DNA of 64,000 nucleotides, from assembly GCF_013201935.1 (NCBI RefSeq), contig NZ_CP053833.1, positions 496,001 to 560,000 on the forward strand, given 5' to 3'. The DNA comes from Arcobacter cloacae. GTDB taxonomy: Bacteria; Campylobacterota; Campylobacteria; Campylobacterales; Arcobacteraceae. The position numbers and the translations under genes were made by a program. Positions 1-26,458 of the stretch are shown one piece after another; the first letter of the stretch is position 1; each line of letters opens with the position of its first letter. The notes below the pieces were generated by a model. It was not told where the DNA came from, ran no database searches, and was given only the letters and a program-made list of their open reading frames with translations.

Positions 1-1569
1 AAAAGCATTATTTATAGATATTATCTCTGCTTTTTCATTGGTAATTATAATTCCTTCAGTTGTATTTTCAAAAACTATATCTGAAAGTTTTAATTTTTTT
101 TGTATTTTTTCTTCTAGGGTAATATCCTTAAATACACAATGGGTTTTAATAGTTCCATTTACACTTGAGATATTTCCTGTAAAACTAGCTATTAATATCT
201 CACCATTTTTCTTTTTTATTTTAATTCTTTCATCAAAAATATGCTTCTCTTTTAAAAATATTGCAAATAAACCTTTTAGAGTTTCATGGGTTTCATCTGT
301 GAATTTAATAAATCTTTGATTTATAACTTCATCTTTACTATAACCTGTTAATTCAAGCCATTTATTATTCACACTTACAATTTCACCTAAATGATTTAAA
401 GATTGATAAGGATAAGGCATTTGTTCGTATAGAAGCTTAAAATTATTCTCTATTTGTATGTTTGTATTTGCTATTTCTGAGATATTTGTAAAAAGAAGTT
501 TTATAATAGAATTATCTAAAATTTTTGTAACAATAACTGTTAATTGAAAGATATTCTTACCAATTTCTATAATTTCATTTTCATTAAAACTATTAGTTTT
601 TATTTTTTTATAAATATAACTCCATTTTTGAAAAGGAATAATTGAGTCTATATTTTGGTCTATTTTTATATCAAATAATTTTTTTGCCTTATCATTAAAC
701 CAATAAATTATCTGTTCTTCATCATTATCAAAAAGTTCAATTACTGCCTCATTTAAAGAGTTAAAAGTATTTTTAACATCTTTTAATTTAGATTCCAAAA
801 ATAGATTGTAATTTCCTTTTATGTTATTTAAAATATCTTTAGATGTGATGATAAAATACTCTTTTTTTTCATTATCAAAAATTACAGCCCTTCTAATGTC
901 TTTCTCTTTTAAAATTTTTACAATTTCAAATAAAGGTTTTTTACTATCAAAAATAATTAAGTTTTTGTGACTATACTCATCTATTTTTAAAGAAGTATCT
1001 ATATGCTTTTGTGCAAGATTTATAACATCACTTTCTGTTAATATACCAACAGGAATAGCCTTATCAAAAACTAAAATTGAGCCTATATTATTGATATTCA
1101 TAATATTTAAAGCATCTTGAATAGAAGAGTTTATATTTACAAAAAGTGCCTTTTGTTTGTTTTTTACTAAATCTATAGCTTTTATATTTGTTTTAAAAAT
1201 ATCTTGTTCAAATTCGTAAATAATTTTTTCTTGTAAAATTGAACCAATATAATTATTCTCATTGTCTGTAACAATAACTCTTCTAATTTTGTGATTTAGC
1301 ATAAGACCTAAAATATAATTTGCTTTTCGATTTGATTTTGCTGTTATTAGATTTTTATTTGCATAATTTATTGCTTTTAGATTTAAGTTTACATGGTTTG
1401 TATATAAAAGTAAAATATCTCTTTCAGTAATTATTCCAACTGGTTTTTTGTTTTCAAGCAAAACAAAATGTTTTGTGTGATTTTCTATCATTGCATCTAA
1501 AATATCTTGTAAAGTTGCTTTACAATTAATAGAGTCTTTTACAGGAGAGATAAGATTGTTTAAGGACAT
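1..1569 (-). CDS. CBS-domain/PAS signalling protein, N-terminal part (runs off window)
   Basis: The frame is open from an ATG at 1569 down to the left edge, so only about 523 residues are seen. I read four CBS-type repeats in the first ~240 residues, with phrases such as PVGIITERDIL, YIGSILQEKII, PVGILTESDVI and IRRAVIFDN. A PAS-like stretch follows around residues 375-480 (WLELTGYSKDEVINQRF, then a KKNGEILIASFTGNIS core and a KDITLEEK linker), and a second PAS begins at the edge (TTEGIIITN). CBS pairs usually sense adenine nucleotides and PAS domains small ligands or redox. In this phylum such proteins commonly end in GGDEF and/or EAL domains, but that output lies outside the window. No signal peptide or membrane segment is seen. 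Confidence 0.85.
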   Translation of the reverse strand, partial: MSLNNLISPVKDSINCKATLQDILDAMIENHTKHFVLLENKKPVGIITERDILLLYTNHVNLNLKAINYANKNLITAKSNRKANYILGLMLNHKIRRVIVTDNENNYIGSILQEKIIYEFEQDIFKTNIKAIDLVKNKQKALFVNINSSIQDALNIMNINNIGSILVFDKAIPVGILTESDVINLAQKHIDTSLKIDEYSHKNLIIFDSKKPLFEIVKILKEKDIRRAVIFDNEKKEYFIITSKDILNNIKGNYNLFLESKLKDVKNTFNSLNEAVIELFDNDEEQIIYWFNDKAKKLFDIKIDQNIDSIIPFQKWSYIYKKIKTNSFNENEIIEIGKNIFQLTVIVTKILDNSIIKLLFTNISEIANTNIQIENNFKLLYEQMPYPYQSLNHLGEIVSVNNKWLELTGYSKDEVINQRFIKFTDETHETLKGLFAIFLKEKHIFDERIKIKKKNGEILIASFTGNISSVNGTIKTHCVFKDITLEEKIQKKLKLSDIVFENTTEGIIITNEKAEIISINNAF

Positions 1570-4729: not shown

Positions 4730-6027
4730 TGAGTTACTTAATAATAAGTTTTTCTCATAAAAATATTGATTTAAAAATGAGAGAAAAACTTGCATTTAAT
4801 AGTTTTGAAGATAAAGAGAGATTTATAAAATTAATTTTAGAAAATGAAACTACAAAAGAGGCTGTTTTACTATCAACCTGTAATAGAGTTGAGATAATTA
4901 CAAGGTCTTCAAATATAAAACAAAGTTCAAAAGATATTATTGAAAAACTTGCAACTTATTCAGGTTTAGATTTTGATATTTTATATAAAAGAGCTGATAT
5001 TTATGATAATGATGGAGCCGTTCATCATCTTTTTTCAGTAGCTTCAGCACTTGATTCTTTAGTTATTGGTGAGACACAAATAGTTGGACAATTAAAAGAT
5101 GCTTTTAGATTCTCACAAGCAAAAGGTTATTGTGCTACAAATATTACAAGAGTTATGCATTATGCTTTTAAGTGTGCTGCTAATGTAAGAAATGCTACGA
5201 GTTTAGGAACAGGTTCTGTTTCTGTGGCTTCTACAGCAGTTGCTAAAGCTAAAGATATTATAGGAAATACAAAAGGTATAAAAGCTTTAGTTATTGGTGC
5301 TGGTGAGATGAGTGAGTTGACAGTTAAACATCTTATATCTTCTGGATTTGATGTAACTATTACAAGTAGAGATATGAAAAAAGCTCAAAATCTTGCATCT
5401 ACTTTTGAAGTTCACGTAAATGTGGAACCATATAGTGAGTTGTCAAAATTACTTGAAAAAACTCCTATTATGATAACAGCTACTTCAGCACCTTATCCAA
5501 TTATTACAAAAGAGAATGCGCCAAGTTCTAGTATTGATAGATATTGGTTTGATATAGCCGTTCCAAGAGATATTGATGAGGATATCTCTTTGTCAAATTT
5601 AGAAATTTATTCAGTTGATGATTTACAAGATATAGTAAATGAAAATATGAGTTTAAGAGCAGAACAAGCAAAAACAGCTTATGGAATAGTAAGTCGTATG
5701 TCAATGGAATTTTTTGAGTGGCTAAAATCATTAGAAATTGAACCTGTTGTAAAAAATCTTTACATAAAAGGTGAAGAGATAATTGATAAAAAAGTAAAAA
5801 ATGCTATTAAAAAAGGTTTCATTAGTGCAAAAGATGAAGAGAATATAAGAAAACTATGTCAAACAGTGATTACTGAATATTTACATAATCCTTCACGGCA
5901 ACTCAAGGATATTTCTAAAAATATGGAGTGTGATGTGGTAATTGGAACTGTTCAAAATATGTTTGGATTATCAAATGATTCAAATTTGTCTAATAAATAT
6001 AAATGTGACCATTTAACAAAAAATTAA
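4729..6027 (+). CDS. hemA: Glutamyl-tRNA reductase
   Basis: Reduces glutamyl-tRNA(Glu) to glutamate-1-semialdehyde with NADPH, the entry step of tetrapyrrole synthesis by the C5 route. The catalytic cysteine is C51 in STCNRVEI. The family signature SLVIGETQIVGQLKDA follows near residues 110-125, and the Rossmann nucleotide loop VIGAGEMSELTVKHL near 188-202. Its 432 residues fit the family. A dimerisation helix occupies the C-terminal third. It overlaps the prenyl synthase stop by one base and is followed 20 bases later by proS. Confidence 0.97.
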   Translation: MSYLIISFSHKNIDLKMREKLAFNSFEDKERFIKLILENETTKEAVLLSTCNRVEIITRSSNIKQSSKDIIEKLATYSGLDFDILYKRADIYDNDGAVHHLFSVASALDSLVIGETQIVGQLKDAFRFSQAKGYCATNITRVMHYAFKCAANVRNATSLGTGSVSVASTAVAKAKDIIGNTKGIKALVIGAGEMSELTVKHLISSGFDVTITSRDMKKAQNLASTFEVHVNVEPYSELSKLLEKTPIMITATSAPYPIITKENAPSSSIDRYWFDIAVPRDIDEDISLSNLEIYSVDDLQDIVNENMSLRAEQAKTAYGIVSRMSMEFFEWLKSLEIEPVVKNLYIKGEEIIDKKVKNAIKKGFISAKDEENIRKLCQTVITEYLHNPSRQLKDISKNMECDVVIGTVQNMFGLSNDSNLSNKYKCDHLTKN

Positions 6028-6047
6028 TAATTATAGGAAAATAGTTT

Positions 6048-7754
6048 ATGAAATTCAGTAAGTTTTTTATGCCAACAACAAAAGAAGCACCAAAAGATGC
6101 AACTTTACCATCACATCAGTATCTAATAAGAGGTGGATTTATAGCTCAAACAGGAGCTGGAATCTATGATTTTATGCCATTAGGGAAAATCGTTTTAGAA
6201 AAAATTAGAGCTATTGTAAAAGAAGAGATGGATAATGCAGGTGCAAATGAAGTTCAATTAGGATTTGTAACACCACTATCTTTATGGGAAGAATCAGGTA
6301 GATCAAACACTATGGGTCACGAGATGCTACGATTTAAAGATAGAAAAAATAGTGATTTTGTTTTAAGTCCAACAAATGAAGAAGCAGTTGTAAATATGGT
6401 AAAAAATAGAATTACATCATATAAAGATTTACCTGTTCATCTTTATCAAATAAACACAAAATTCAGAGATGAAGCAAGACCTAGATTTGGTCTTATGAGA
6501 GGAAGAGAGTTTTTGATGAAAGATGGATACTCTTTTCATTCAAGTGAAGAGGATTTAATTAGAGAATTTAATCTAATGGAAGCTACATATAAAAAAATTT
6601 ATACAAAACTTGGCTTAGAGTTTAGAGTTGTAAATGCAGATAGTGGGGCTATTGGAGGAAGTGGTTCTAAAGAATTTCATGTTCTTGCAAATAGTGGAGA
6701 AGATACTATTGTTGTTTGTGATTCATGTGATTATGGTGCAAATATTGAAGCAGCAGTTAGAAAAGCAAATAAAAAAGAGAAATTACCAACAATTCCATTA
6801 GAAAAAGTAGAAACACCAAATCAAAAAAGTATTGAAGAGGTGAATAGCTTTTTAGGAACAGATTCTTACTATTCAATGAAAGCCGTTATAAAAAAAGCTA
6901 TTTATGAAGATAAAACAAAAATTGCTGTATTTTTTGTAAGAGGTTGTGATGAACTTGAAGAGACAAAAGCTGTAAATGCTGTTGGAGCTATAGATTTAGA
7001 AGATGCAAGTGAAGATGAAATAGAAAAAGCAGGATTAGTTGCAGGATATTGTGGAATTTTAAATATTACTTCAAACGTTTTAGTTGTTGTTGATAGTGAA
7101 CTTGAAGGTGAAAATAACCTTGTAATTGGTGCAAATGAAGAGAACTATCACTATAAAGGTTTTGATTTAACAACTTTGGAAAATGTAGTTTATAAAGATT
7201 TAGTAGCAGTTCAAGAGGGTGATATTTGTGCTTGTTGTGGTGGAAAATTATCTTATACAAAAGGAATTGAAGCAGGGCATATTTTCCAATTAGGAACTAA
7301 ATACTCTGCTGCTATGAATGCAAATTTCTTAGATGAAAATGGAAAAGCAAAACCATTTGTAATGGGATGTTATGGTATTGGAGTTTCAAGGTTAGTTGCA
7401 GCTGTAATTGAACAAAATCACGATGAAAAAGGTTGTATTTGGACAAAAGAGACAGCACCTTTTATGGTTGATATTATTGTTTCTAACTCTAAAAAAGAGG
7501 AAGAGGCACAAATCGGTGAAAAAATCTATAATGAATTAAAAGCATCTGGAGTTGAAACTATTTTAGATGATAGAATAAATGCTAGATTTGGTTTTAAAAT
7601 GAGTGATTTTGAATTAATTGGATTTCCATTTGCTGTTGTAATTGGAAAAAGATTAGAAGATGGAATGGTTGAAATAGTAAATAGAAAAACTTTGGAAAAA
7701 TTTGAAATAGAAGTTGAAAATGTTACTAAAAAAATAGTTGAGCTGTTAAAATAG
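6048..7754 (+). CDS. proS: Prolyl-tRNA synthetase (bacterial type, with editing insert)
   Basis: A class II aminoacyl-tRNA synthetase charging tRNA(Pro). Its 568 residues match the long bacterial form with an inserted deacylase (INS) domain that removes mischarged alanine. Motif 2 is seen as [17 protein letters not shown] around residue 141. The INS domain covers roughly 230-390, and motif 3 is [13 protein letters not shown] near 441. The C-terminal anticodon-binding domain contains [13 protein letters not shown]. The start ATG follows AGGAAAA. It is the last gene of the aroK-to-proS run before a new promoter. Confidence 0.97.
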
Positions 7755-18066: not shown

Positions 18067-18411
18067 ATGGATTGGGGTAAAGTAACCTATATTTTCTTTT
18101 CACTAATGTCTTTAACTACAACAGCAGGTTTTTTATATGAACCAAATGCTATTGCGTTATTTATTGCAGCTGGAGTTAATGTAATTTCAACAATACTTAA
18201 ACTAGGTGTTAAAAATTTACTTGCAGCTGAATTATTAGCAAGTTCATTAGTGGCTGATTTACACCTAATACCAGCTTTTATGGTGCTTGTTTTCAGTGAT
18301 AATCTTGCTCTTGCTATCTCTTTAGCAATAGGTGCAGTTGTCGCAAATGTTTTTTCTATAGCATTAGCATTAATTGAAAGTGCAAAAAGTCAAGATAAGG
18401 AAGAGTTTTAA
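18067..18411 (+). CDS. Small integral membrane protein, DUF6394-like
   Basis: 114 residues, almost wholly hydrophobic, with three or four membrane helices (about 5-25, 28-48, 50-72 and 78-102) and a short acidic tail. I recall a campylobacterial family of this size labelled DUF6394 next to leuS, but cannot confirm membership by eye. No catalytic motif is seen. AAAGGATAAAA precedes the ATG. The stop overlaps the leuS ATG by one base, so the two are translationally coupled. Confidence 0.6.
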
Positions 18412-20876
18412 TGGAATATATTTCAAAAGATATTGAAAAGAAATGGCAAAATTTTTGGAGCGAAAACCAATCTTTTGAACCAAGTGATGATTTAACTAAA
18501 GAGAAAAAATATATTTTAAGTATGTTCCCATATCCAAGTGGAAGAATTCATATGGGACATGTTAGAAATTATTGTTTAGGTGATGCTTTTGCTAGACATT
18601 TTAGAAAATCTAATTTTAATGTTTTACATCCAATTGGATGGGATAGTTTTGGAATGCCAGCTGAAAACGCAGCTATAAAACATAAACTTCATCCAAAAAA
18701 ATGGACTTATGAAAATATTGATTATATGAGAGATGAGTTAAAGGCTTTAGGTTTATCTTTTAGTGAAACAAGAGAATTTGCAACAAGTGATGAACTTTAT
18801 ACAAAATGGGAACAAGAGTTTATTATTAAAATGTATGAAGCTGGAATCATTTATAGAAAATCAGCAACAGTAAACTGGTGTCCACATGATTTAACAGTTT
18901 TAGCAAACGAGCAGTTAGAAGATGGTTGTTGTTGGAGATGTGGAACACAAGTTGTTCAAAAAGAGATGCCAGGATATTATGTAGGAATTACAAAATATGC
19001 TCAAGAGTTACTTGATGATTTAGAATTATTAAAAAATGATTGGCCAAGCCAAGTTTTAACTATGCAAGAAAATTGGATTGGAAGAAGCGAAGGTTTAGAG
19101 TTTAAATTTGAGTTATCTGTAGAATCAAAAGCAAAACTAGAAAGAACATTTAGTAAATATTTTGTATTTACAACTCGTCCTGATACAATTTATGGAGTTT
19201 CTTATTCAGCCCTTGCTCCTGAGCATCCAATAGTAAAATATATAGTTGAAAATAATCTTTTACCAGAAAAAAAGATAAAAGCAATTAAAGATATGCAAAA
19301 AGTTCCTGAAAGAGATAGAGCTATTCAGGAAAAGGAGGGTGTTTGCCTTGAAATAGAGGTTATGCATCCATTAACAGGTGAGAGAATTCCTGTTTGGGTT
19401 GCTAACTTTGTTTTAGCTTCTTATGGTGGAGGAGCTGTTATGGCTGTTCCTGCCCATGATCAAAGAGATTTTGAATTTGCTAAGAAATATGATTTACCAA
19501 TTAAACAAGTAATTGTAGGAAATGAAGGAATCATAGATAATCCAACTGAAGCATTTACAGGTGAAGGAACTTTAATTAATAGTGAAAGTTTTACAGGTTT
19601 ACCAAATATAAAAGCTAAAAAAGCGATTATTTATCATTTTGAACAAAACTCTTTAGGAATAAAACAAGTTAATTTTAAACTTAGAGATTGGGGAGTTTCA
19701 AGACAAAGATACTGGGGTGCTCCTGTTCCATTTATTCATTGTGAGAGTTGTGGATTAGTTCCTGAGAAAATCGAAAATTTACCAGTTGCATTACCTGAAG
19801 ATGTTGAAATTACAGGTGAGGGAAATCCTTTGGATTCTCATCCTACTTGGAAACATTGTTCATGCCCAAAATGCGGAAAACCAGCTATTAGAGAAACAGA
19901 TACTTTAGATACTTTTGTTCAATCTTCTTGGTATTTTTTAAGATATGCAACAAATCCAAAAGTTTGGAATGAAACGGGAATTTTAAAATCTGATAGTGAT
20001 TATTGGATGGATGTTGATCAGTATATTGGTGGAATTGAACACGCAATTTTACACCTATTGTATGCAAGGTTTTTTACAAAAGTTTTAAGGGATTTAGGAT
20101 ACACAAATTCTACAGAACCATTTAAAAGATTATTAACACAAGGAATGGTTTTAAAAGATGGCGCTAAGATGTCAAAATCAAAAGGAAATGTTGTAGATCC
20201 TGATTTAATAGTAGAAAAATATGGAGCGGATACTGCAAGATTGTTTATGATGTTTGCAGCACCTCCAACAAAAGAGCTTGAATGGAATGATAGCGCTGTT
20301 GATGGTGCTTATAGATTTATTAAAAAATTCTTTGAAAGAGCAGAAAATGTAACAACTTCATCTTTAGAAGCATTTAAGAATATCGAGCACTCTTCTTTAA
20401 GTAAAGAAGAAAAAGAAGCGAGAAAAAAAGTTTATGAAGCATTACTAAAATCAAATGAAGTATTTACAAAAACTTATACTTTTAATACATTAATTGCATC
20501 TTCAATGGAAGCTTTAAATGCTTTACAAGCACAAAAAAATGAGTTAGTTTGGGCAGAAGGTTATTATATTTTAACAAATATTCTAGAGCCAATTATTCCT
20601 CATGCTTGTTGGGAACTATCAAATAGATTATTTGAATTAAAGAATTTTGATGGAAAAATAGAGATTAAAGAAGAAGTTTTTGCTTTAGAGTCTATAGTTT
20701 TAGCAGTTACTGTAAATGGTAAAAAAAGATGTGAAATTGAAGTATCACCTGAGGCTACAAAAGATGAAATTTTAGCCACTGCAAAAATTGCATCGGCTAA
20801 ATGGCTAGGAAATAGTGAATTAGTAAAAGAGATAGTTGTTCCTAATAAATTAGTTAATTTTGTGATTAAAGGATAA
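18411..20876 (+). CDS. leuS: Leucyl-tRNA synthetase
   Basis: A class Ia synthetase that charges tRNA(Leu). The HIGH-type signature HMGHVRNY lies near residues 47-54 and [13 protein letters not shown] near 587. The CP1 editing domain between them contains [15 protein letters not shown] and [16 protein letters not shown], the latter with the conserved Asp of the editing site. A zinc-knuckle-like CEHCG-type segment appears twice ([12 protein letters not shown], and CESCG...CPKCG). The 821 residues are normal. It is followed six bases later by lptE. Confidence 0.97.
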
Positions 20877-20882
20877 AAAATC

Positions 20883-21407
20883 ATGCATATTTATAAAAAT
20901 TTACCTTTTCTTATTTTTACACTAATTTTTACTTTTTTATTTAGTGCTTGTGGATATAAACCATCTAGCTATTATGCAAAGCAAGAGATGCAAGGTAATG
21001 TTTTTGTAAAACTACAAGTTAGTTTGGAAGATCCAAAGAATTCTGTTTTAGTAAAAGATGCTGTAAATAAAATCTTAATTCAAAAATTAGATTCAAGAAT
21101 GGTAAATGATATAAATAATGCAGAAGTTGTTATGAATCTGGCTATTAGTAGGGTTAGTATTTCAACATTACAGTATGATAAAGAGGGTTATAATAAACTT
21201 TATAAAGCTACAGTTGTTATTAGTGTTAATTATTATAGAAAAGATAATGGAATTAAAAAATCTTTTACAGTTGATGGAGAGTATGATTTTTCAATTGACC
21301 AAGGAAGTGTAATTAGTGAAACTAATAGATTTGATGCAATTACAAATGCTTCAAATAAAGCTATAGATGAAATTTTATCAAAAATCGCTGTTTCGTCATT
21401 TAAATAA
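20883..21407 (+). CDS. lptE: LPS-assembly lipoprotein LptE
   Basis: The outer-membrane lipoprotein plug of the LptD barrel that inserts lipopolysaccharide. The signal peptide ends in the lipobox LFSACGY, with the lipidated cysteine at residue 23. The mature chain is small and mixed alpha/beta, with DAVNKILIQKLDSRM and GEYDFSIDQGSV. Sequence conservation in this family is low. The call rests on the lipobox, the length of 174 and the leuS-lptE-folC order known from related genomes. Confidence 0.8.
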   Translation: MHIYKNLPFLIFTLIFTFLFSACGYKPSSYYAKQEMQGNVFVKLQVSLEDPKNSVLVKDAVNKILIQKLDSRMVNDINNAEVVMNLAISRVSISTLQYDKEGYNKLYKATVVISVNYYRKDNGIKKSFTVDGEYDFSIDQGSVISETNRFDAITNASNKAIDEILSKIAVSSFK

Positions 21408-21409
21408 AT

Positions 21410-22582
21410 ATGCAAGTAGATTTAAAAAAAGCAACTTTAAAAGAGTTTTTGGAACATAAAACTCTTTATTATGACAAGATAGATTTTAGTTATGTAAAAT
21501 CTTCTTGGAATATTTTATCTTCTAAAATTAAACTTCCTTTTGTTATTCATATTGTTGGAACAAATGGAAAAGGAAGTACAGGAAGATTTTTAGCTCACTA
21601 TTTAAATAAAAAAAAGTTTAATGTTCTACACTATAGTTCCCCACATATTATGAAGTTTAATGAAAGAATCTGGATAAATGGATTTGATGTTAGTGATGAA
21701 AATTTAGAAACTGCTCACCAATTTTTGCAAAAGTTATATGAAGTAGAACTTTTAGAAAAATTAACATATTTTGAATATACAACTTTATTAGCATTTTATT
21801 TATCAAAAGATTTTGATTATTTAGTTTTAGAAGCGGGACTTGGTGGGGAGTTTGATGCAACAAATGTTGTACCAAATGATATTTCATTAATTACAACAAT
21901 TGGACTTGACCATCAAAATTTTTTAGGAGATAGTGTTGAAAAAATAGCAACTACAAAAATGCGTTCAGTTGATAATAAAATGCTAGTTGGTTATCAACTT
22001 TTTGATAGTGTTATTAAAACAGCTTACGAAGTAAAAGAACAAATTTTAAAAGAAAGAGATAAAAATATAGAAATTATTGAATTAAAAGAGTTTGATAAAT
22101 ATGAAATAAATTCAAAATTTGCCACTTATTTAAAACGAAATTTACATTTAGTAATTGCTTGTTTAAATGAACTAAAAATTCCAGTTGATTTAAAGCTTTT
22201 TGATGATACACCACTTTTTGGAAGATGTCAAAAAATTTTGCCAAATGTAACTATTGATGTAGGACATAATCCACTAGCCGCACAAGTTTTAGTAAAAGAG
22301 TTTGAAAATAAAAAAATAAACCTTATTTACAACTCTTATGGAGATAAAGATTATAAAAGTGTATTAGAAATTTTAAGACCAATAATAAAAAGTATAACTA
22401 TTATTGAATTAAATGATAAAAGAATAGTAAAAAAAGAAGAGTTACAACAAGTAATATATGAACTAAATTTAACAAAAAAAGAAGAGATAAAAATAGAAAA
22501 AAATGAAGAATATCTAGTTTTTGGTTCATTTTTAGTTGTAGAAAAATTTTTGTCTTTGATTGGTTATGATGGAAACTCTTGA
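21410..22582 (+). CDS. folC: Folylpolyglutamate/dihydrofolate synthase
   Basis: A Mur-ligase-like ATP enzyme that adds glutamate to dihydropteroate or folate. The P-loop VGTNGKGSTGRFLAHYL starts near residue 47. HYSSPHIMKFNERI follows near 78, then the E-rich LEAGLGGEFDATN near 142 and TTIGLDHQNFLGD near 160. The C-terminal domain includes DVGHNPLAAQVL. Its 390 residues fit. It starts two bases after lptE, and its 3' end overlaps the next gene. Confidence 0.94.
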   Translation: MQVDLKKATLKEFLEHKTLYYDKIDFSYVKSSWNILSSKIKLPFVIHIVGTNGKGSTGRFLAHYLNKKKFNVLHYSSPHIMKFNERIWINGFDVSDENLETAHQFLQKLYEVELLEKLTYFEYTTLLAFYLSKDFDYLVLEAGLGGEFDATNVVPNDISLITTIGLDHQNFLGDSVEKIATTKMRSVDNKMLVGYQLFDSVIKTAYEVKEQILKERDKNIEIIELKEFDKYEINSKFATYLKRNLHLVIACLNELKIPVDLKLFDDTPLFGRCQKILPNVTIDVGHNPLAAQVLVKEFENKKINLIYNSYGDKDYKSVLEILRPIIKSITIIELNDKRIVKKEELQQVIYELNLTKKEEIKIEKNEEYLVFGSFLVVEKFLSLIGYDGNS

Positions 22583-24692
22583 AAAAAGATTAGATGAACT
22601 TTATATTCAAAAAACTAAAATTGAAGAAGAGATAGAACTTTTAAAAGAGCAAATAAAACAAAAAAATCACTTAGCTTTAATCAAAAAAAAGTTTACCAAA
22701 GATGAAAAAATAGAACTTTTTAAATCTTTATTTGTTGCACGATTTGATATTTATGCTAAGAAATGGATAAGTCGTGATGGAACAAAACAGGGCTTTTATC
22801 CTGTAACTGCTACTTTTCAAGCAGAAGATTATCTTCCTTTGACAAATAAAGAGATTGAAGAGCATTTAAGAGGAAATGTTTTTTTAGCAACTTATTGTAT
22901 AAATCAAAACAATATGTCAAAATTTATTGTTTTTGAAATAGCTGATGAAGATAAATTTAAACTACAGATTGCATTAAACTCTTTAAATATAAAGGCTTAT
23001 TATGAACTTAGTTCTTATAATTCTTTATTTGTTTGGATATTTTTACAAGAAGAGATTTCCTCTAAAATAGCTTTTAATTTTGCATTATATCTTTTGAAAA
23101 AAGCAAATATAAGTTCTAAAACTTACCCAAATAAAGAGTTTGCAACAAAAGAGAGTCTAGGAAATAGCATAGAATTACCTTTACATTTAAAACATAGAGA
23201 TAAAAATAGAACAGTTTTTATAGATGTAAATACAAATAAAATTTATGAAGACCAATGGAGTGTTTTGGCTAATGTTTCAAAGGTTTCAAAACAAATCATT
23301 TCTAATTTTGCAGATATTCCAAACTCTGTGAGTATTGAAAAGAGTCAAAAAAAGATAGATTTTCCATTACAAACTATAGAGATTATTTTAGAAGATTATA
23401 TCTATATCCCAACTCTTAAATTATCAAAATCATTGATTAGTAAATTAAAATCTTTTGCAACTTTTGAAAATCCTCAAATAAAAATTTTATTATCTTTGAG
23501 AAAACCGCTTTTTAATACTCCAAAATATATCAGGTCGTTTGAAGAGAATGAAAATTATTTGATGCTTCCAAGAGGTTTAAAGCAAACAATAGAAGATTTT
23601 TTTAATGAGTTTGCTGTTAAATACTCATTTATTGATAAAAGAGTTTATAATCAAATTGAAACAAAAAAAGTAACTTTTAATTTAAGACCTGAGCAAAATG
23701 ATGCAATAAAAGAGATAAAAAAAAGTGATTACTCTATTTGTGTTGCGCCTCCTGGATTTGGAAAAACACTACTAGGAGCTAAAATATTTGAAATAAGAGT
23801 TTGTAATACTTTGATAGTTGTAAATAAAAATATGCTTTTAAATCAATGGATTGAAAGATTTGTGGATTATTTTGGATATTCAAAAAAAGATATTGGATAT
23901 TTAGGAAAAGGACATAATAAATTAAATGGAATAATAGATGTAGCAACTATGCAAAGTTTAAAGAATGATTCAAAAATCATAGAAAACTACTCTTTTGTAA
24001 TTGTTGATGAGTGCCATCATATTCCAGCTTTGACTTTTGAGCAAATTATTAAAAGTTTTAAAGGAAGATATATTTTAGGTTTAAGTGCAACTCCAAATAG
24101 AAAAGATGAATTGCAACCTATTTTATATCAGCAATTAGGTGAGATTTCTTATGAGTATAAAAAGAAAAGAACACACACAAATAAACTACAAATAATCAGA
24201 ACAGAGTTTGTGAGTAATGCTGATAACTATGCTACAATCATAAACGAATTGTGTTTAGATGAAAATAGAAATAATTTAATAATAGATGCAATAAAAACAA
24301 ATATTCAAAGAAAAATTTTAGTTTTAACAGATAGAATAGAACATATAAATATTTTGGAAAATTTATTACAAAAGCAAAATATTGATTATATTTGTGTTCA
24401 TGGAAGTCAAAATAAAAAAGAACAAGTGGAAAATATGGCATTAGTAAAAACAAAATCTTTGATTCTTGCAACAACTTCATATTTTGGAGAGGGTATTGAT
24501 TTTCCACATTTAAATACTATTATGTTTGTAACCCCTATTTCATATTATGGAAGATTGATTCAATATTTAGGAAGAATAGGACGAGGAAATCAAGAGTGTT
24601 TAGCTATAGATTTTTTAGATTCAAAAAATGCTATGTTAAATTCAGCTTATAAAAAAAGGCTTGAAGGTTATAAGCAGATGCATTATAAATAA
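22566..24692 (+). CDS. SF2 helicase with N-terminal degenerate TOTE-type primase domain
   Basis: After an N-terminal coiled coil (~1-45), residues ~55-240 resemble the archaeo-eukaryotic primase domain of TOTE conflict systems: FVARFDIYAKKW, then GFYPVT, EEHLRGN, NSIELPLHLK and DQWSVLA. The catalytic places are altered. The family's FLAIDFDK is FIVFEIAD here (~119-126), and the SRSGNGAH-type histidine loop reads SSYNSLFVWIF. The helicase follows intact: APPGFGKT (~394), VIVDECHH (~480), LSATPNRKDE (~503) and QYLGRIGRG (~668). I chose ATG 22566; TTG 22560 and ATG 22569 are also possible. It overlaps folC by 17 bases. Its role is probably DNA unwinding or repair, but this is unproven. Confidence 0.75.
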   Translation: MMETLEKRLDELYIQKTKIEEEIELLKEQIKQKNHLALIKKKFTKDEKIELFKSLFVARFDIYAKKWISRDGTKQGFYPVTATFQAEDYLPLTNKEIEEHLRGNVFLATYCINQNNMSKFIVFEIADEDKFKLQIALNSLNIKAYYELSSYNSLFVWIFLQEEISSKIAFNFALYLLKKANISSKTYPNKEFATKESLGNSIELPLHLKHRDKNRTVFIDVNTNKIYEDQWSVLANVSKVSKQIISNFADIPNSVSIEKSQKKIDFPLQTIEIILEDYIYIPTLKLSKSLISKLKSFATFENPQIKILLSLRKPLFNTPKYIRSFEENENYLMLPRGLKQTIEDFFNEFAVKYSFIDKRVYNQIETKKVTFNLRPEQNDAIKEIKKSDYSICVAPPGFGKTLLGAKIFEIRVCNTLIVVNKNMLLNQWIERFVDYFGYSKKDIGYLGKGHNKLNGIIDVATMQSLKNDSKIIENYSFVIVDECHHIPALTFEQIIKSFKGRYILGLSATPNRKDELQPILYQQLGEISYEYKKKRTHTNKLQIIRTEFVSNADNYATIINELCLDENRNNLIIDAIKTNIQRKILVLTDRIEHINILENLLQKQNIDYICVHGSQNKKEQVENMALVKTKSLILATTSYFGEGIDFPHLNTIMFVTPISYYGRLIQYLGRIGRGNQECLAIDFLDSKNAMLNSAYKKRLEGYKQMHYK

Positions 24693-24703: not shown

Positions 24704-26323
24704 ATGTTAGGGATAATTGTCGCAACAACATTAATTGCGTTAATTTTAAATTTATTACTTAAAAGAATACATTTACCTACGATTATAGGATATATTTTAA
24801 CAGGTACAATTATTGCATATGTATTTAATTTACATAATGCAGTTGATAATCATGAGCTTAGAGAAATAGGTGAATTTGGTGTAGTTTTTTTAATGTTTAC
24901 TATTGGATTGGAATTTTCTTTAAATCACTTAAAAAAGATGAGAAGAGAAGTTTTTCTAACAGGTAGTTTACAGATTTTAGTCACAGCTTTATTTGTATTT
25001 TTAATCTCAAGATATGTAATTGGACTTGAAGTTCAAACTTCTTTAATTGTTGGAATGGCATTGTCTTTATCTTCAACAGCTATTGTTTTAAAAACATTTA
25101 ATGAAACAAAAGAGATAACAAAACCTCATGGAAGAAGAGTTCTTGGTATTTTGATTATGCAAGATATCGCAGTTATTCCAATTCTTCTTATGATTTCATT
25201 TTTCTCTATGAAAGGTGATGCTTCATTAACTTATACAATAGGAAAAACTGTATTAGCAGCGATAGTTTTATTATCTTTATTATATTTTGCAGGTAAATAT
25301 CTATTAGAACCATTTTTGAGATATGTTTCATCAACAAGATCAGATGAATTGTTTGTAGCCTCTGTTTTACTTTTAGCTGTTGGATCTGCTTATTTGGCTT
25401 ATTATTTCGGATTTTCATACTCTTTAGGAGCATTTATTGCTGGTATGATGATTGCTGAAACAAAATTTAAACATCAAGTAGAAGCGGATTTAATTCCTTT
25501 TAGAAATATTCTATTGGGAATTTTCTTTATAACGGTTGGTATGCAGATTAATTTTAAAGTAATTTACGATTATGCTTGGATAATTGCTATTTTATTACCT
25601 GTTGTTATGGGATTGAAATTTGCAGTTATTTATGCTCTTGTAAGATATGAAGATAATAAAAGAGTTGCTTTTAAAACAGCTTTATCTTTGATTCAAATAG
25701 GGGAATTTTCACTGGCAATTTTAGAACTTGCAAGAAGCCAAAGTCTAATAGATACAACATATTCTCAAATTTTAATCGTAACAATTGTAATTTCAATGAT
25801 TTTAACTCCAATTATTCTAAAAAATCTTTCAAAAGCAGCAGCAAAATTAATTCCTGAAGATGTAATGATGATTACAAATACACATAATGTTTCAGAAGAT
25901 ACAGAAAATCACGTTATTGTTTTAGGATATGGAAGATTTGGACAAGCAATAGTTGAAGAATTAAAAGCCTTTGGACAAAAATATGTTATTTTAGAACATA
26001 ATGTTAAGTTTTATCAAATAGGAAAAGATAGAGGTGAACCTATTGTATTTGGGAATGCTGCTCAAAGACATATATTAAATTCATTAAATATCACCAAATC
26101 ATCTGCTGTTATAGTTGCTGTTAATAATCCTGAAGTATTATATTTGATTTGTGAGGCTGTAAGAGAACTTACACTTAATAGTAAAACAATTGTAACAGTT
26201 ACAACGGAAACAGAAAAAGAACATTTAAGAGGTTTAAATTTGGAGCATATTGTAGTTGCTACAAATCAAATAGCAAAAGCTGTTGTTGATGAAGTAATGT
26301 ATTGCAGATTGGATAATAATTAA
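24704..26323 (+). CDS. kefB: Cation:proton antiporter, KefB/CPA2 type with TrkA-N domain
   Basis: A membrane potassium or sodium/proton antiporter of the CPA2 family. The first ~380 residues hold about 12 spans, including LPTIIGYILTGTIIAYV, FGVVFLMFTIGLEFSL and SLSSTAIVLKTF. A cytoplasmic TrkA-N (RCK) nucleotide-binding domain begins at HVIVLGYGRFGQAIVEEL (~402). Its 539 residues are a little shorter than E. coli KefB. No glutathione-gating partner (KefG/F-like) is next to it, so thiol control is not supported here. AAGGAG precedes the ATG. Confidence 0.85.
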   Translation: MLGIIVATTLIALILNLLLKRIHLPTIIGYILTGTIIAYVFNLHNAVDNHELREIGEFGVVFLMFTIGLEFSLNHLKKMRREVFLTGSLQILVTALFVFLISRYVIGLEVQTSLIVGMALSLSSTAIVLKTFNETKEITKPHGRRVLGILIMQDIAVIPILLMISFFSMKGDASLTYTIGKTVLAAIVLLSLLYFAGKYLLEPFLRYVSSTRSDELFVASVLLLAVGSAYLAYYFGFSYSLGAFIAGMMIAETKFKHQVEADLIPFRNILLGIFFITVGMQINFKVIYDYAWIIAILLPVVMGLKFAVIYALVRYEDNKRVAFKTALSLIQIGEFSLAILELARSQSLIDTTYSQILIVTIVISMILTPIILKNLSKAAAKLIPEDVMMITNTHNVSEDTENHVIVLGYGRFGQAIVEELKAFGQKYVILEHNVKFYQIGKDRGEPIVFGNAAQRHILNSLNITKSSAVIVAVNNPEVLYLICEAVRELTLNSKTIVTVTTETEKEHLRGLNLEHIVVATNQIAKAVVDEVMYCRLDNN

Positions 26324-26431: not shown

Positions 26432-26458
26432 AGTGGCTAAAGTTAAGCTTTAGCTACT
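26432..26458 (+). terminator. Hairpin in the kefB-rhodanese gap, possible terminator
   Basis: AGTGGCTAAAG pairs with CTTTAGCTACT (one G-U pair) around TTAAG, followed by ATTTTAAT. It may end the kefB transcript, or lie in the leader of the rhodanese gene, which starts 22 bases later. The rest of the 156-bp gap is AT-only repeats with many TATA-like boxes. Confidence 0.45.

Follow-up and report, generated by a model that had tools for sequence, protein, structure and literature searches.

A catalytically degenerate AEP domain fused to an XPB-like helicase in the housekeeping gene row of Arcobacteraceae

How does a fusion of an archaeo-eukaryotic primase (AEP) domain and a helicase, whose intact relatives lie on plasmids or at scattered sites, come to sit in a row of housekeeping genes, and what could it do there? 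We addressed this question for a gene in a 64,000-nucleotide stretch of DNA (the window; contig 1, positions 496001-560000) from a 2.81-Mb genome with a second contig of 189-kb. The genome belongs to the family Arcobacteraceae, and its closest rows in our trees are Aliarcobacter/Arcobacter genomes. The locus contains the following features.

18411..21407, + strand: leuS and lptE, the fixed row upstream (ORFs, synteny)
21410..22582, + strand: folC, directly upstream and overlapping, a fixed neighbour (ORFs, synteny)
22569..24692, + strand: the pseudo-AEP/XPB-like helicase gene, 707 aa, with ATG at 22569 and an alternative in-frame ATG at 22566 (ORF and Pfam)
24704..26323, + strand: Kef-type Na+/H+ exchanger-TrkA_N gene, the usual downstream neighbour (ORFs, synteny)
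26432-26458: terminator-like hairpin 3' of the Kef-type/TrkA_N gene

The ORF ends with a stop at 24692, and its 5' end overlaps folC by 14-17 nt. Genes encoding a rhodanese and an acyltransferase are also found at the locus, beside leuS, lptE, folC, and kef. A preliminary description had placed the gene in a conserved housekeeping row overlapping folC, and both the overlap and the synteny described below bear this out. A promoter scan at the locus gave a match count equal to that of shuffled sequences. Our literature search found neither a description of the Arcobacteraceae protein nor an Arcobacter study with transposon or transcriptome data.

Analysis of the 707-aa protein confirmed that it consists of a coiled coil, an AEP fold, and an XPB/UvsW-type SF2 helicase, arranged as follows.

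22572..22682, + strand: long N-terminal helix (residues 2-38), a probable coiled coil and the fastest-evolving part (AlphaFold2 models; dN/dS)
22701..23330, + strand: catalytically degenerate AEP/Prim-Pol domain (residues 45-254; Pfam AEP-TOTE, CAPP structural alignment)
23370..23648, + strand: domain that follows the AEP and precedes the helicase (residues 268-360), which aligns with the XPB/UvsW N-terminal domain
23664..24158, + strand: RecA-like domain 1, with motif I GFGKT (K399), motif II DECHH (480-484), and motif III SATP (506-509) (Pfam ResIII)
24159..24638, + strand: RecA-like domain 2, with motif IV, motif V GEGID, and motif VI QYLGRIGR (665-672) (Pfam Helicase_C)

Residues 46-246 match Pfam AEP-TOTE (PF22548) end to end with 181.8 bits (E = 2e-53), where the curated cut-off is 27 bits, and ResIII and then Helicase_C follow C-terminally. 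Mean pLDDT in the AlphaFold2 models was 87.8 for the whole protein and 88.6 for residues 2-362. Because the corresponding pTM values were 0.53 and 0.62, domain placement is unreliable in these models. The nearest solved fold for residues 45-254 is that of CAPP, the CRISPR-associated Prim-Pol of Marinitoga (PDB 7nqd/7nqf/7p9j; 23-24% identity). The modeled domain aligned with 7nqd/7nqf over 193-194 residues (Z 23.5, rmsd 2.4-2.5), and Foldseek matched it to CAPP with an E value of 1e-13; the next fold matches were HP0184, Prim-PolC, LigD, and PriS. By both Foldseek and VIA-align, the model therefore has the catalytic-core fold of AEPs. The earlier proposal that the N-terminal region keeps a TOTE primase scaffold is upheld by the Pfam score and the Z score to CAPP, and structure prediction returned an AEP fold rather than a different one.

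The helicase half resembles XPB/Rad25 throughout its length. Residues 268-699 of the model aligned as a whole with XPB-II from S. tokodaii (6p4f_C 0..435; VIA-align Z 27.7, 377 residues aligned), including its N-terminal domain, so that the XPB arrangement of an N-terminal domain followed by two RecA domains is present. The N-terminal domain of T4 UvsW (1rif 1..87) also aligned, with residues 267-358 (Z 6.5, 23% identity). In these models, the region connecting AEP and helicase thus looks like an XPB/UvsW-type N-terminal domain and not a plain linker. Identity to XPB/Rad25 and UvsW is only about 20%, however, the window protein differs from them in its fusion to an AEP, and the NCBIfam XPB equivalog model scored 56.9 bits against a cut-off of 610. 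As first described, the helicase retains all its motifs (GFGKT, DECHH, SATP, GEGID, and QYLGRIGR), and the key residues (GFGKT, DECHH, SATP, GEG-D, and QYLGR-GR) are invariant in all 53 distinct chromosomal sequences compared; GYGKT occurs in a few copies read beyond those 53. Since the helicase half is XPB/UvsW-like by its modeled fold, a role on DNA appears more likely than a role on RNA.

The AEP domain has changed at each of its three catalytic motif groups.

22935..22943, + strand: motif I position, where E123-I-A125 replaces D-x-D (both Asp present in 59/59 intact relatives)
23010..23030, + strand: motif II loop SSYNSLF (residues 148-154), whose F154 replaces the His of 59/59 intact relatives
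23106..23141, + strand: motif III region (residues 180-191), GID stretch deleted, D replaced by S183 and R by K184 (alignments)

In AEPs, motifs I and III bind metals and sxH binds nucleotide, and active members have an acidic motif I, an sxH motif II, and an hD/E motif III (PMC4538821). The window protein departs from this pattern with E123/A125, with F154, and with a motif III that is deleted or substituted. S183 occupies the position of the YDR Asp found in 59/59 intact copies, and the His loop also lacks two glycines that are invariant in the intact relatives. The preliminary description had read the DxD pair as ExA and had found no His in the histidine loop (SYNSLF). Alignment with the 59 intact relatives agrees that the Asp and His columns are lost, and the loss of motif III is new. 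CAPP differs from the window AEP, which lacks the active site, in having D177/D179 and polymerase activity. The D177A/D179A mutant of MpCAPP is inactive (PMC8211822), and this motif aligns with E123 and A125. As a caution, primase activity was later shown for BcMCM, which had at first been reported to lack it (PMC4538821). From its sequence, we predict that the window AEP domain is inactive.

These losses extend across the family. All 78 Arcobacteraceae chromosomal copies were read, and none retains the full catalytic set, compared with 59/59 sampled relatives elsewhere (about a dozen phyla in all, with 18 from Campylobacterota); the search that yielded these relatives was seeded mainly with intact sequences, such that degenerate copies elsewhere could escape it. 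Chance cannot account for the losses, as they are common to all 78 family genomes with the gene. Neither the first motif I Asp nor the motif III Asp is kept in any of the 53 distinct sequences. His is lost in 50 of them, and the three that keep this column (L034, L126, and L142) also lack the Asp pair.

Could the domain have diverged and stayed active by using shifted acidic residues (E123, D126/E127, and E190)? Glu is conserved at the first motif I position in 89% of the degenerate sequences, and the RepE/RepS family of AEPs, in which Gln replaces the motif III Asp, provides a precedent for substitution (PMC5862659). We nevertheless consider an active enzyme very unlikely, given that the second motif I residue is non-acidic in nearly all sequences (A, N, L, T, S, or another such residue), that so few retain His, that the GID/YDR stretch is deleted or replaced, and that the His loop no longer has its invariant glycines.

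The gene is present in 78 of 104 Arcobacteraceae genomes (70 of the 88 of good quality), and the remaining 26, some of which are incomplete drafts, gave no match. In genome G330, the site between bactofilin and kef is empty. Some lineages can therefore do without the gene; those that lack it are mostly early-branching or small-genome lineages in the LeuS tree. Full-length matches in a phylum sample of 397 genomes came from Arcobacteraceae and, scattered, from other families. A survey of whether all Campylobacterota copies are degenerate, suggested at the outset, gave a negative answer: the chromosomal Arcobacteraceae copies are degenerate, and the scattered copies, several of them plasmid-borne, are intact. 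Three further observations concern individual genomes. The copy in draft genome G292 (L039, about 4752-6863) has an in-frame TAG within the AEP domain, which may be a sequencing error or a real break, and likewise lacks the catalytic set. In genus g4 (G134, G456, and G457; L046, L273, and L274), about 60 further residues have been lost, leaving proteins of 647-659 aa with an intact helicase. Genome G403 carries a second, very divergent AEP-TOTE match (contig 121, 2189-2692; L272; 49.5 bits) in an 893-aa frame.

The degenerate copy is a core gene with vertical inheritance. All 53 degenerate sequences fall into a single clade (SH-aLRT 100), which is joined to 17 intact Campylobacterota sequences with a support of 83 in a quick tree whose long branches were flagged by the program. 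Pairwise distances among degenerate copies track those of LeuS (r = 0.89) and FolC (r = 0.93), and their evolutionary rate equals that of FolC. The order leuS-lptE-folC-helicase was found in all chromosomal loci whose length allowed the comparison. In most genera, folC and the helicase gene are separated by genes for an M23 peptidase and a bactofilin (e.g., L086, 4817-6111); these two are absent from that spot in Aliarcobacter and in the long-branch LC1 lineage (L045/L142). The date of entry is uncertain, and the gene may have been present in the family ancestor and later lost in places or may have arrived slightly later. Among 72,556 plasmids, no copy was at least 60% identical to the degenerate type, and viral contigs held no close relative of it (best match, 32%); in phage records, matches were confined to the helicase half. 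Given these searches, a recent arrival of the degenerate type from phages or plasmids was rejected. In other families, the row runs folC-M23-bactofilin-mfd or folC-mfd, and replacement of Mfd was also considered and rejected: mfd is present in 96 of 104 genomes. Because Mfd is still encoded in the window genome, about 15 kb downstream, the helicase is not a substitute for that SF2 protein.

Selection acts on the AEP part as it does on the helicase. In pairwise comparisons (18 pairs), dN/dS of the degenerate AEP part was 0.02-0.17, close to the values for both helicase domains, and that of the AEP part of intact copies was about 0.06. Only the N-terminal coil was under looser constraint. Ongoing decay of the AEP is rejected by these values. 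A dead scaffold held by purifying selection is thus well supported, and survey, tree, synteny, and selection together support the suggestion that a mobile-type gene was domesticated in the housekeeping row.

A retained fold need not do more than hold the protein together, and the AEP could be a structural remnant, with the helicase doing the work and the N-terminal half stabilizing the fold or dimerizing the protein. The further loss of residues in genus g4, where the helicase is kept, would fit such a remnant, as would the smaller share of near-invariant positions in the AEP part (39 of 201) than in the helicase (176 of 335). The AEP part, however, matches the helicase and intact AEPs in its low dN/dS, and at least 94% of the degenerate sequences carry each of the fixed clade-specific residues R101, K131, and K184. 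On balance, we regard a mere remnant as rather unlikely. The mean net charge of the AEP domain is +4.5 in degenerate and +1.0 in intact copies, and this weakly favors nucleic-acid binding by the dead domain.

The window genome also encodes an intact counterpart. Its 189-kb contig 2 carries an AEP-TOTE paralogue of 732 aa (235.9 bits) that is 43% identical to the window protein from end to end and has intact motifs (VIDLDK, SGNGIH, and SYDRMFPNQD). This paralogue (L072, 7128-11495) lies directly 3' of an AbiEi/AbiEii-like pair. The same toxin-antitoxin arrangement occurs on plasmids of Aliarcobacter cibarius and cryaerophilus (L226 and L227), HipA is also among the toxin-antitoxin genes beside plasmid-borne intact relatives, and on the Aliarcobacter plasmids examined the intact copies are surrounded by transposases and other plasmid genes. 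AEP-TOTE/SF2 proteins from Aliarcobacter plasmids (e.g., WP_151029588.1 from A. cibarius pACIB), Sulfurimonas, Sulfurovum, and Sulfurospirillum share domain order, length class, and 41-44% whole-protein identity with the window protein but keep their own DxD, SGxGxH, and YDRxFPxQD motifs and lie on plasmids or at scattered sites.

The name TOTE stands for TPR, OB (cold-shock), TBP, and Effector genes in an operon (PMC12458937). Judged by gene identity, no TPR/OB, TBP, or effector partners were recognized at the locus, nor were TPR, OB, or TBP genes recognized near the Aliarcobacter plasmid copies examined. The original designation as TOTE-type thus stands for the Pfam domain and not for a TOTE system; here, it is a domain label only. 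The mobile intact relatives resemble non-CRISPR CAPP-helicase proteins, and CAPP_A type 3 likewise fuses Prim-Pol to a helicase (PMC8211822). From gene identity alone, none of the genes at 18-30 kb of the window is recognizable as Cas.

Dead enzyme domains serve as sensors in immunity. The chromosomal copy could accordingly be an immune gene that has become fixed, with the dead AEP sensing foreign DNA or the replication intermediates of phages and the helicase acting on invading DNA. The toxin-antitoxin genes adjoining the intact plasmid relatives (AbiEi/AbiEii and HipA) and the naming of the Pfam family for conflict systems both speak for defence. Typical defence genes are patchy and mobile, though, whereas this gene shows vertical inheritance, a FolC-like rate, fixed synteny, and low dN/dS, and we recognized no effector or partner gene beside it. 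We judge a defensive function unlikely.

Our preferred explanation, to which we assign a probability of roughly 55%, is that a mobile AEP-helicase was domesticated and that its dead AEP now places an XPB-like translocase. Sequence, tree, synteny, and rates show that one copy of a mobile AEP (Prim-Pol)-helicase settled into the leuS-lptE-folC-M23-bactofilin row early in the history of Arcobacteraceae, lost all three catalytic motif groups and with them, by prediction, primer and DNA synthesis, and has been passed on vertically ever since. Judging from its family, the XPB/UvsW-type SF2 ATPase half most likely uses ATP to translocate on double-stranded or branched DNA. The dead AEP fold, retained under strong selection, most likely serves as a nucleic-acid-binding or docking module that brings the translocase to places where single-stranded meets double-stranded DNA, for example at stalled forks, at gaps, or at sites of damage. 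If so, the protein would contribute to genome maintenance or to the remodeling of forks or branches in the cell. That the AEP is a dead scaffold is highly probable, and its specific role in targeting the translocase is more tentative. The domain might be a protein-protein scaffold instead of a DNA binder, and the only link to repair is the fold of the helicase half.

A second degenerate AEP is found elsewhere in the phylum. The weak AEP-TOTE matches examined in other families are DUF1882 proteins (HP0184 family; PDB 2ATZ; L048, 4656-5198, and L228-L247), and HP0184 is known as an AEP subfamily (PMC8065100) and as a Prim-pol domain (PMC3397514). Like the window domain, HP0184/DUF1882 has an AEP fold (Z 13.2 between the two) and is degenerate: motif I reads D-Y-N in 26 of 27 aligned sequences, and the motif III Asp is absent. 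It differs in being a stand-alone protein of about 180 aa, in lying in the glyA operon in H. pylori, and in retaining a His. DUF1882 occurs in 306 of the 397 genomes of the phylum sample and in 0 of 104 Arcobacteraceae, a distribution complementary to that of the helicase-fused form. Campylobacterota may repeatedly use dead Prim-Pol folds as core nucleic-acid-handling modules, HP0184/DUF1882 in most other families and the helicase-fused form in Arcobacteraceae, where it would have taken over the DUF1882 role upon loss of DUF1882, but we think this improbable. Because this is a single between-family contrast, and DUF1882 is missing as well from Arcobacteraceae that lack the helicase, replacement is offered as a hypothesis only.

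What began as an enzyme of mobile elements seems here to have become a regular part of the cell. The same cell holds an intact primase-helicase of the plasmid type and, at 43% identity, a dead chromosomal version that is passed on vertically, which amounts to a natural experiment. Comparison of the pair could reveal what the AEP fold does apart from catalysis, how replication enzymes of mobile elements turn into housekeeping proteins, and which function an XPB-like bacterial translocase has in Aliarcobacter and the rest of its family. Naming by Pfam label, as a primase or a conflict system, would misname the gene across Arcobacteraceae. A split form of the intact type also occurs (contig 2 of genome G318, L076, 7954-10151; Aliarcobacter faecis plasmid NZ_CP053838.1), in which the N-terminal half and the helicase are separate ORFs of 431 and 299 aa.
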